A DNA stretch of 64,000 nucleotides. It comes from Lacibacter cauensis (GTDB taxonomy: Bacteria; Bacteroidota; Bacteroidia; Chitinophagales; Chitinophagaceae). Where the stretch lies: NCBI RefSeq assembly GCF_007830055.1, contig NZ_VLLE01000003.1, forward strand, positions 496,001 through 560,000, written 5' to 3'. The notes below the pieces were generated by a model. That model was not told the origin of the DNA, ran no database searches, and saw only the letters and a program-made list of their open reading frames with translations. Positions 45,403 through 48,865 of this stretch are shown in pieces; position 1 is the first letter of the stretch; the number at the start of each line of letters is the position of its first letter. The translations under genes were made by a program, and so were the position numbers.

Positions 45403-46674
45403 ATGTTACAATTGGCATTTATTCGCCAGAACAGAGATTTGGTGAAAGAACGACTGGCCGTAAAACATTTTGCTGATGTAAACCTCGTTGACCAGATTAT
45501 TGAACTGGATGAGCAACGCAGGAAAACGCAGCTGGAAAATGATGAGCTGGCATCGAAAGTAAATGCAGCATCGAAAGAAATCGGGATGCTGATGGGTAAA
45601 GGACAAAAAGAAGAAGCCGAAGCAAAGAAAACAGAGGTTGCACAGTATAAAGAATCGTCGAAAAACATTGCTGATCAGTTAAGCACATTGGAACAGCAGG
45701 TGAATGAGTTGCTGGTGCGTTTGCCCAATCTGCCGTCTACATTAGTACCTGTTGGTAAAACAGCAGACGAGAATGTGAATGTAAAAGAAAGCGGCGATGA
45801 GCCTGTGTTGCCTGCCAATGCAAAACCACATTGGGAATTGATTGAGCAATACGATATCGTCAATTTTGAATTAGGTGTAAAAATCACCGGCAGAGGTTTT
45901 CCGGTGTACAAAGGAAAAGGTGCCAAGTTGCAACGTGCACTCATCAGTTATTTTCTTGATTACAATACGGCAGCAGGTTATACCGAATATATTCCGCCGT
46001 ACATGGTTAATGAAGCAACTGCTTATGGTACCGGACAATTGCCCGATAAAGAAGGACAGATGTATTACATGCAGGCCGATAATTTTTATATGATCCCCAC
46101 TGCAGAAGTACCTGTTACCAATGTGTATCGTGATGAGATTGTAAAAGAAAATGAACTGCCGATTAAAATGACGGCATACACACCATGTTTCCGCAGAGAA
46201 GCAGGAAGCTTTGGTGCCGATGTGCGTGGTTTAAACCGTGTACACCAGTTCGATAAGGTAGAAATCATTCAATTGGTTCATCCCGAAAAGAGTTATGAAA
46301 CGTTGGATGAAATGGTAGCGCATGTAGAAAAGCTGTTGCAGAATCTCGGTTTAAAATACCGCATTCTTCGTTTATGCGGCGGCGATATGAGTTTTACTTC
46401 TGCATTAACATACGATTTTGAAGTATGGAGTGCCGCACAAAAGAAGTGGCTGGAGTGCAGCAGCGTAAGTAATTTCGAAAGCTTCCAGACTAACAGGATG
46501 AAGATTCGTTTTAAAGATGAAAAAGGAAAAACACAATTAGCACACTCTTTAAATGGAAGTTCATTGGCGTTGCCACGTATCATGGCTGCATTGCTGGAGA
46601 ATAATCAAACAGAAAATGGCATTGTAATACCGGAAGTATTACGTCCGTATTTTGGAGCAGATGTGATCAATTAA
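45403..46674 (+). CDS. serS: Seryl-tRNA synthetase
   Basis: A 423-residue class II aminoacyl-tRNA synthetase charging tRNA-Ser. The N-terminal antiparallel coiled-coil arm spans about residues 1-110 (LVDQIIELDEQRRKTQLEND). Class II motif 2 lies in TPCFRREAGSFGADVRGLNR followed by VHQFDKVE, and motif 3 in LNGSSLALPRIMAALLENNQ. Length is standard. It has its own promoter box and ends in a strong bidirectional terminator shared with the convergent metalloprotease gene. Confidence 0.97.
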   Translation: MLQLAFIRQNRDLVKERLAVKHFADVNLVDQIIELDEQRRKTQLENDELASKVNAASKEIGMLMGKGQKEEAEAKKTEVAQYKESSKNIADQLSTLEQQVNELLVRLPNLPSTLVPVGKTADENVNVKESGDEPVLPANAKPHWELIEQYDIVNFELGVKITGRGFPVYKGKGAKLQRALISYFLDYNTAAGYTEYIPPYMVNEATAYGTGQLPDKEGQMYYMQADNFYMIPTAEVPVTNVYRDEIVKENELPIKMTAYTPCFRREAGSFGADVRGLNRVHQFDKVEIIQLVHPEKSYETLDEMVAHVEKLLQNLGLKYRILRLCGGDMSFTSALTYDFEVWSAAQKKWLECSSVSNFESFQTNRMKIRFKDEKGKTQLAHSLNGSSLALPRIMAALLENNQTENGIVIPEVLRPYFGADVIN

Positions 46675-46694
46675 AATCAAGTAGTGTATAAATG

Positions 46695-46726
46695 AAAATG
46701 CCCTGTTACTATCAGGGCATTTTTTT
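46695..46726. terminator. Bidirectional terminator between serS and the first M43B gene
   Basis: AAAATGCCCTG and CAGGGCATTTT form a perfect 11-bp stem with a 7-nt loop, with T on the plus side and A (T on the minus strand) on the other. It serves the convergent genes on both sides. Confidence 0.9.
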
Positions 46727-46741
46727 ATGTACCAGCAAAAC

Positions 46742-47721
46742 TTAATTCGCAAGTGAAGCTCTCGGGCCGCCAATTGCATACGTTGCCTGTACACGCATGG
46801 CTTGTCCCTTCGAAAACATATACATACAGGCATCGTCTGTATGTATATGTAGTTCATCGTCATTTCAATACCGCCGTCGCAACTGCTTATTTTATTTGCA
46901 GGCGGACAACCGAAGTTGTACGTATAATGCAGCGGTGTATCATCTACATAATCGTTCCCGCATTGGCGATCGCCCCAAATATGACGCAGGTTAAAGTAAT
47001 GGCCCACTTCATGTGTTGCTGTACGGCCAAGGTTGTAATCTGTGTAAAGATTATAAGCAGCTCCACGGCCAAATGCAAGTGTATTGATTACTACACCATC
47101 AGTTGCTTTATTACCTCCGGGAAATTGAGCATATCCTAAAATACCGCCGCCTAAATTACAAACCCACATGTTCATCGTTGTTTCAGGGCTTGTGGCATCG
47201 ATGCCACCACGACTTGCTGATTTCATAGCATTGTTGGTAGAAAATGCAGTAACAGTTGTATACTTCCTGTTTACCTGTTTTAGGATAAAACGAATTTTAA
47301 GATCACCCGACTTCACACTGTTATAGGTGCTGGTGGTAAACAAATCTTTGTTGGTTGCTCCGAAATCTTCATTAAGCACATCTAGCTGCGATTGTATTTG
47401 CCTGTCTGAAATATTTTCTTCGGGTTTATTGTAGAGCACATTTACAACCACCGGTAATTCAAGTACTCCGTTGATTACTTTTCGATAGGCAGCGGGGTTT
47501 TGTATATAGCGGTTGGTAAAGGCTTCGATGTCGTTCATGCGGTCTTTTAAAGTGGGGTCTGCTTTCAGTTGCTCCTGGAACACTTCGTACGTACGGCAGG
47601 CTTTACCGGGCGCTTTGGTAATAAACAACTCTTCGCCCTCGGCAGTATTTATTTTGCTGTCGGTTTTAGCACAACCGAACATTGTGAGCAGCAATACTAT
47701 GCTGAAATAGTATGTTTTCAT
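46742..47721 (-). pseudogene. M43B metalloprotease lipoprotein, frameshifted near the 3' end
   Basis: A pappalysin-like zinc metalloprotease lipoprotein (lipobox MFGC, Cys17). The catalytic motif HEVGHYFNLRHIWGD is intact. After MTMNY at about 46846 the frame is lost: translation continues as an unrelated tail to 46639, inside serS. Shifting frame restores TDDACMYMFSKGQ then GGPRASLAN and a stop at 46742, matching the neighbouring paralogue (TADACMYMFTAGQ, GGPRASLR). Relative to the paralogue one base is missing and the Met-turn (MNYMDY) is damaged. The event sits exactly in a perfect 14-bp inverted repeat (46816-46850). The coordinates give the restored gene of 326 codons. It may be a real lesion or a sequence error; downstream coding is otherwise intact, so it is recent. 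Confidence 0.82.
46816..46850. repeat. Perfect 14-bp inverted repeat inside the frameshifted gene
   Basis: ACATATACATACAG at 46816-46829 and CTGTATGTATATGT at 46837-46850 are exact reverse complements with a 7-nt centre (GCATCGT). The right arm is where the coding frame is lost. The paralogue at 47876-48865 has only an imperfect version at the same codons. Confidence 0.95.
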
Positions 47722-47875: not shown

Positions 47876-48865
47876 TTATCTTAATGAAGCTCTTGGACCA
47901 CCAGCTGCAAAAGTTGCACGCATACGTGTTTCCTGCCCTGCAGTAAACATGTACATACAAGCATCAGCTGTATAATCCATATAATTCATATTCATTTCAA
48001 GAGGCTTACCGCTACACGCACTTTTTGCACCAGCTGCGGGGCAACCATAGTTTGCACCATCATGCGCAGGTGTATCTCCAACAAAATCATCACCACATCT
48101 TCTGTCGCCCCAGATATGACGCAGGTTCAGCCAATGGCCAACTTCATGTGTTGCTGTTCTTCCTAAATCGTAGGTAGATGTGAATGTGCCTGAAGGAACT
48201 TTGGCACGGCTGCCGAAAGCACTGTAAAGAATTACTACACCATCGGTTGCAGTAGAACCACCCGGAAACTGAGCGTAACCTAACAGGCCACTTCCAAGAT
48301 TACAGCTCCACATATTTAATGAAGTAGTAGGATTAGTAGGATCAATACCACCTTGTGATGATTTTTTCATTGCATCATTTGTACCCCAAGATGTAATTGT
48401 TGTTGATTTACGAATAATTCCGGCTAATGTAAAACGGATATTTGTGTTACCTGCTTTAACAGTTTGATAGGTAGATGTTTTATTTACATCTCCGTTTGAA
48501 CCAGCATAATCTTCATTCAGCACATCGATTTGCGATTGGATTTGTGCATCAGAAATGTTTTCAGCAGCGTTACTATATAATACATTCACGTATACAGGAA
48601 TCGTCATTGTAATGCCATCTGCTTCGAGTTTACCGTTTACACTTTTTTGTGCAACATAACGGGCAGTAAAAGCTTCAATTTCATCCATACGTTTTTGCAA
48701 TGAAGGATCTTCCTTCAATTTTGCCTGTAATACTTCGTAGCTGGCGCAACGGCGTGTCGTTGCCTCTACTGTATTCTCCTCTTCTTGTTGTTTGTCCGAT
48801 ACGGATTTGCTACAGCTAACGAGCAGCATTAATGCAGCTGCTGTTAGCACAGATAATTTCTTCAT
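47876..48865 (-). CDS. M43B (pappalysin-like) zinc metalloprotease lipoprotein
   Basis: A 329-residue surface or periplasmic lipoprotein protease. The signal MKKLSVLTAAALMLLVSC gives acylated Cys18; the frame is open back to 49039, but the signal fixes the start at 48865. The propeptide-like region is followed by the catalytic domain with HEVGHWLNLRHIWGD (the extended HExxHxxNLRHxxGD zinc motif) and the Met-turn MNMNYMDY. Paired cysteines surround the active site. It ends GGPRASLR without a T9SS sorting domain. It is a tandem paralogue of the gene just downstream (154 nt gap), and both probably digest extracellular protein. Confidence 0.88.
   Translation of the reverse strand: MKKLSVLTAAALMLLVSCSKSVSDKQQEEENTVEATTRRCASYEVLQAKLKEDPSLQKRMDEIEAFTARYVAQKSVNGKLEADGITMTIPVYVNVLYSNAAENISDAQIQSQIDVLNEDYAGSNGDVNKTSTYQTVKAGNTNIRFTLAGIIRKSTTITSWGTNDAMKKSSQGGIDPTNPTTSLNMWSCNLGSGLLGYAQFPGGSTATDGVVILYSAFGSRAKVPSGTFTSTYDLGRTATHEVGHWLNLRHIWGDRRCGDDFVGDTPAHDGANYGCPAAGAKSACSGKPLEMNMNYMDYTADACMYMFTAGQETRMRATFAAGGPRASLR

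Follow-up and report, generated by a model that had tools for sequence, protein, structure and literature searches.

Mutations in which a template switch makes an imperfect inverted repeat, or quasipalindrome, perfect form an established class, as described in the passages cited here (PMC7202029; PMC8604942). In Escherichia coli (the thyA hotspot and the lacZ QP reporters), phage T4 (rII) and yeast (CYC1, Ripley model), these passages describe imperfect repeats made perfect, or more nearly so, by new bases that match the partner arm, as we propose here; yet those are laboratory mutations, hotspots and reporters, whereas the Lacibacter change presented below is carried naturally and is recognised only via relatives (PMC7202029; PMC8604942). 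In strains of Saccharomyces cerevisiae, template-switch multinucleotide changes are described for 39 genes, with the homogenisation of arms in coding DNA inferred from phylogeny, as we do here; these changes are reported as amino-acid replacements, whereas the net -1 of the Lacibacter change breaks its gene (PMC8604942). Few in-gene cases had previously been reported according to that source (PMC8604942), and among the titles and abstracts listed by searches of open-licence papers none described a naturally fixed case in a Bacteroidota gene. The protein concerned belongs with the unicellular pappalysins of family M43B (ulilysin, mirolysin, and cytophagalysin). In mirolysin, the Met-turn is given as Asn282-Asp285 and the tyrosine switch as Tyr286 (PMC6949598); in cytophagalysin, M284 and Y286 are named as the Met-turn and tyrosine-switch residues, respectively (PMC11674741).

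Our findings support a model where, in this Lacibacter lineage, the first of two tandem M43B genes was inactivated through a quasipalindrome-associated template-switch mutation, a reading to which we give a probability of about 85%. We regard the locus as a real and well supported case, natural and recent, of a mutation type already known, and not as a new system. It comes with intact orthologues, one of which holds an in-frame candidate precursor, and with a chance expectation that was counted; it suggests that the same error can break genes of wild Bacteroidota, and that a single genome and its relatives suffice to recognise such changes, which would otherwise be counted as several separate mutations.

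The window, the whole stretch of DNA analysed (64,000 nucleotides), comes from a Lacibacter cauensis genome (family Chitinophagaceae; G000; 4.95 Mb, 10 contigs, 99.99% complete). The nearest relative among the genomes compared is Lacibacter luteus TTM-7 (G001), of the same genus; over 328 kb of aligned DNA the two are about 83% identical. The features of the locus are the following:

45403..46674, plus strand: convergent neighbour gene (ORF), which reads as serS (seryl-tRNA synthetase), a name given from its sequence
46686..46732, no strand: imperfect inverted repeat between the protease gene and the convergent neighbour (arms 46686-46708 and 46710-46732; repeat scan)
46639..47721, minus strand: first M43B metalloprotease gene, a frame-shifted ORF of 360 aa (ORF and Pfam match)
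47879..48865, minus strand: second M43B gene, an intact tandem paralogue (ORF; PF05572, 50.8 bits)

The intact paralogue matches ulilysin and mirolysin across the catalytic domain. The broken first copy reaches 27.2 bits for PF05572 (cut-off 23) and scores higher, 30.9 bits, for Reprolysin_5 (PF13688, cut-off 27); it has the zinc motif HExxHxxxxxH, as HEVGHYFNLRH, in common with the unicellular pappalysins. The second copies have a history of their own: that of the window is 79% identical in amino acids to its counterpart in the genome G010 and 62% to that of L. luteus (L019/L020), whereas the first copy is closest to that of L. luteus (84%), and the second M43B copies turn over or are exchanged. 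The repeat at 46686-46732 is probably a two-way terminator; L. luteus has a perfect repeat at the equivalent position, just past the gene, and the window's repeat is absent from the output of a terminator scan. A tRNA scan of the 64-kb window gave none, and a plasmid search returned two records with partial matches over 8-10% of the query.

The frame in which the first M43B gene starts is open from 47721 to 46639, but it leaves the family sequence within the arm 46837-46850, where the first-pass annotation had placed the loss of frame. With the L. luteus orthologue as a tblastn query, residues 1-292 align at 83.6% identity and residues 294-325, read in a second frame, at 87.5%, down to an original-frame stop at 46742-46744, so that the frame switches between residues 292 and 294 and the original frame does remain coding beyond the event, as had also been claimed. 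On the gene strand, nine bases lie between the MNY and T codons in the homologues and eight, ATATACAT, in the window. We examined the Met-turn in 129 distinct genes, counted as those with an HExGH[W/Y/F] motif in the recovered homologous loci: 124 have the ATG in frame (108 of them reading ATGGAYTAY), one is broken, that of the window, and four are not readable, three being truncated by contig ends and one reading NYLDY. The latter, from a Segetibacter metagenome-assembled genome (L084), carries a leucine in place of the Met-turn methionine. At this point the window copy has MNYIYIQ instead of the MNYMDYT, or close variants of it, seen in homologues, and it has neither the Met-turn methionine nor the tyrosine-switch residue; thus, we file it only as a broken member of the M43B pappalysin family.

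The break coincides with a perfect inverted repeat, already noted in the first-pass annotation, whose arms are complementary at 14 of 14 positions around a 7-nt spacer. Its parts are:

46816..46829, plus strand: partner arm ACATATACATACAG, taken as the template arm; its minus strand encodes the conserved CMYMF codons
46830..46836, no strand: spacer of 7 nt, the hairpin loop
46837..46850, plus strand: changed arm CTGTATGTATATGT, the exact reverse complement of the partner arm, in which the frame is lost
46837..46842, plus strand: arm of an inner 6-bp stem, which pairs with 46824-46829 and could prime fold-back
46843..46846, minus (gene) strand: minimal replaced block, four bases against five in four orthologues, matching 46820-46823

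The codons of the partner arm match those of the homologues except at third positions, and this arm shows one difference to L. luteus, against six in the changed arm. On the gene strand, GGATT in the four orthologues corresponds to ATAC in the window, and ATAC is the reverse complement of a segment of the partner arm; both junctions of the replaced block match the partner arm as well, the exact edges of the block (46843-46846) varying with the third-position states assumed for the ancestor. The several substitutions and one-base deletion initially described are better read as the replacement of five bases, GGATT, by four, ATAC, although the net loss of one base stands. As single-stranded DNA, the repeat is estimated to form a strong hairpin (-12.4 kcal/mol).

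Orthologues in the same tandem arrangement were recovered from four genomes (G001, G002, G010, and G011), and all four are intact, with nine bases at the site where the window has eight. The change is thus placed on the window's own branch and, as judged from these orthologues, is derived. The perfect repeat occurs in one of 394 family genomes, the window's own, a sample that included 10 of the 14 Lacibacter genomes; when all 14 were scanned, no other Lacibacter genome had the perfect repeat with a 7-nt loop. In particular, an orthologue carrying the perfect repeat in an intact frame, the observation named at the outset as contrary to a template switch, was not found. What preceded the change is less uniform. 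The inner stem, ATACAG-N7-CTGTAT, occurs in frame in the orthologue from G002 and in a homologue from G013, and in no other of the Lacibacter genomes apart from the window's own (n = 14). The G013 homologue (L016) has both flanking matches, ACAT and ATACAG, one to each side, whereas in the orthologue from G002 the inner stem goes with an incomplete outer ACAT match. In the G001, G010, and G011 orthologues the longest stem at the site is 4 bp. Since such short stems are found in three of the four orthologues, including the nearest relative, the inner stem is only a candidate precursor for the true ancestor, whose state at the site is obscured by saturated third positions. Hence, of the expectation that relatives would carry an in-frame arm with an imperfect palindrome, the frame holds in four of four, with an inner stem of 6 bp in one (G002) and stems of 4 bp in the other three.

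Under the proposed mechanism, the growing strand, here the plus strand of the window, would copy the arm 46816-46829, then the spacer, and then the initial six bases of the second arm, which would pair with the first arm as a hairpin. The hairpin end would be extended by four self-templated bases (46843-46846), and the growing strand would then go back to its true template at the ATGT/ACAT match. Five bases would thus become four, with the repeat made perfect and the frame shifted by -1 at the Met-turn. We take the plus strand as the growing one because the unchanged arm comes first on it. A positive GC skew usually marks the leading strand, and the skew of the plus strand is positive in 15 of 16 window bins and amounts to 0.038 over 400 kb; the plus strand of the window is therefore likely the leading strand. 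In G002, a single contig, about 2.1 Mb separate the orthologue from dnaA along the shorter arc, and its orientation agrees, provided that dnaA marks the origin. The title of the 1991 work of Trinh and Sinden, cited in PMC10710837, points the other way, reportedly to secondary-structure mutagenesis that prefers the lagging strand. For E. coli, the passage cited describes the leading strand as the more mutable one in induced template switching (PMC6357072). Overall, the strand evidence weakly favours a leading-strand event.

Counts place the repeat beyond what chance would give. In 400 kb of the same genome, 89.5% of it predicted ORFs of 150 aa or more, we found 18 perfect repeats (arm of at least 14, loop of at most 40), 16 of which lie outside ORFs, as terminators do, and two inside, the protease repeat and a terminator-like one; ten triplet shuffles of the same 400 kb produced one such repeat in total. 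Within 42 nt around the Met-turn, perfect stems reach a length of 3-6 bp in 123 of the 124 in-frame homologues and 9 bp in the remaining one, against 14 bp here. The 9-bp stem, with a 7-nt loop and in another register, belongs to the intact, in-frame second M43B copy of G011 (L006), indicating that the Met-turn codons are naturally palindrome-prone. Only one of the 256 possible 4-mers in the slot gives the 14-bp repeat, and it is the one present, the reverse complement of the partner arm; together with the intact orthologues, this supports the original suggestion of template switching during replication.

The same letters can nevertheless be obtained through two ordinary slippage indels at one spot, a loss of five bases and a tandem duplication of the neighbouring ATAC. 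On this view, the inverted repeat is a by-product of GTAT repeats that the codons impose on the other arm. A direct-repeat reading does exist, since the new block is identical to the four bases next to it, and this pair of events yields exactly what is observed. The initial statement that a simple indel would not produce the repeat hence holds for one indel (0 of 519 products of single simple events) and fails for two. However, a perfect repeat of at least 14 is seen in only 3 of the 144,942 distinct products of two events, and two independent events would be required within about 10 bases. We prefer one template switch over two indels because the remaining gene is without clear damage, and regard the latter as improbable. 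A random-event simulation (1-5 events, 50,000-200,000 runs each) returned the repeat once, at five events; having allowed deletions of at most 3 bases and no duplications, it favoured the template switch and is superseded by the enumeration.

That amplification fold-back or a local misassembly perfected the repeat in the assembly only, during sequencing, library preparation or assembly, seems a little more improbable still: such artefacts are possible in principle at inverted repeats, but this assembly has 10 contigs and is 99.99% complete, and a comparison with 214 ORFs of L. luteus (detailed below), which also serves as a control on the sequence quality of G000, found an internal frame split in one gene only. 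A repeat under selection, as a regulatory hairpin or as a programmed-frameshift signal for a shorter or altered protease, would fit the strength of the hairpin (-12.4 kcal/mol as single-stranded DNA); nonetheless, the repeat is missing from the 393 other sampled family genomes, the Met-turn codons themselves are destroyed, and the shifted ORF crosses the probable terminator into the end of the neighbouring gene, so that we hold this explanation to be highly improbable. Two further candidates were rejected outright: gene conversion from the tandem paralogue, which has ATGGATTAT at the site, and a conserved RNA hairpin, the repeat being found in no relative.

Apart from the frameshift, the gene bears no clear signs of decay. 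The L. luteus comparison covered ORFs of 120 aa or more, each within one aligned block; ten of the 214 have a net frame difference in the window's genome, and only the first M43B gene is split inside; in each of the other nine, no more than 22 residues at an end fall outside a single frame. This single internal split and the 87.5% identity of the tail argue that the break is recent and no part of a general decay. Over the first 292 codons, dN to L. luteus is about 0.09 and dN/dS about 0.05, with dS saturated. Among amino-acid changes that could be polarised, 15 fall on the window's branch and 6 on that of L. luteus (25 are unpolarised; two-sided binomial, 0.078), a non-significant hint that the window gene is already under mild relaxation; thus, other changes may have preceded the frameshift in a gene already failing.

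Unlike ulilysin, mirolysin, and cytophagalysin, the broken copy has lost the Met-turn methionine, the aspartate and the tyrosine-switch residue that follow it, and everything C-terminal to them. As far as can be predicted from the sequence, its protease activity is very probably gone. The shifted ORF has no stop before the 46686-46732 repeat and extends into the 3' end of the convergent gene, where it stops; since no stop precedes the likely terminator, many shifted-frame transcripts may be without a stop codon. The intact tandem copy may make the loss of the first copy tolerable.

We also considered whether the locus points to something more general. With the intact L. luteus orthologue as query, 216 of 294 family genomes matched; among the 150 matches listed, 148 reach residue 311 or beyond (counted by eye) and two end at 292-294, the window gene and one at a contig end (G032), so that no match listed other than the window gene breaks there inside a contig. 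The absence of a second break among the matches listed, along with the occurrence of the perfect pattern in 1 of 394 genomes, argues against a frequent hotspot in the sampled genomes. Enzymes that could check such events were surveyed as well. In E. coli, ExoI, ExoVII, and SbcD act on fold-back (quasipalindrome) structures. Among the 14 Lacibacter genomes (G000-G013), xseA, for the ExoVII large subunit, was detected in one and SbcD above cut-off in one, with weak sub-cut-off matches in 12 others, and the recJ control in 13; the ExoI C-terminal family, a narrow one whose control matched E. coli only, of 14, was found in none. Exonuc_VII_L exceeds its cut-off in 23 of 97 family genomes (at least 95% complete), leaving 74 without it. 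Being usual in the family, the absence of ExoVII is no special cause for one event. The broader proposal, that an intrinsic quasipalindrome in the M43B Met-turn codons and apparently missing nucleases leave fold-back copying poorly checked, as a recurrent source of gene loss in this group, is one that we consider improbable.

Two scans extended the comparison with L. luteus beyond the locus. Clustered reverse-complement copies, sought over the 328 kb aligned with at least three edits and three clean columns per side, numbered 0 in the window's genome, the known site being missed, and 1 in L. luteus, with 0 in two controls. Starting instead from repeats of at least 12, three or more differences in one arm were seen in 10 of 27 aligned repeats in the window's genome, the protease site among them, and in 11 of 24 in L. 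luteus, against 0 to 1 in reversed and merely complemented controls. Many of these one-arm-differing repeats resemble diverged terminators, and thus no rate is claimed. One of them, an intergenic perfect 15-bp repeat of the window's genome (L119:15534-15577; G000:C2:365534-365577), has four differences to L. luteus in one arm and none in the other, and is a candidate second case of arm homogenisation.
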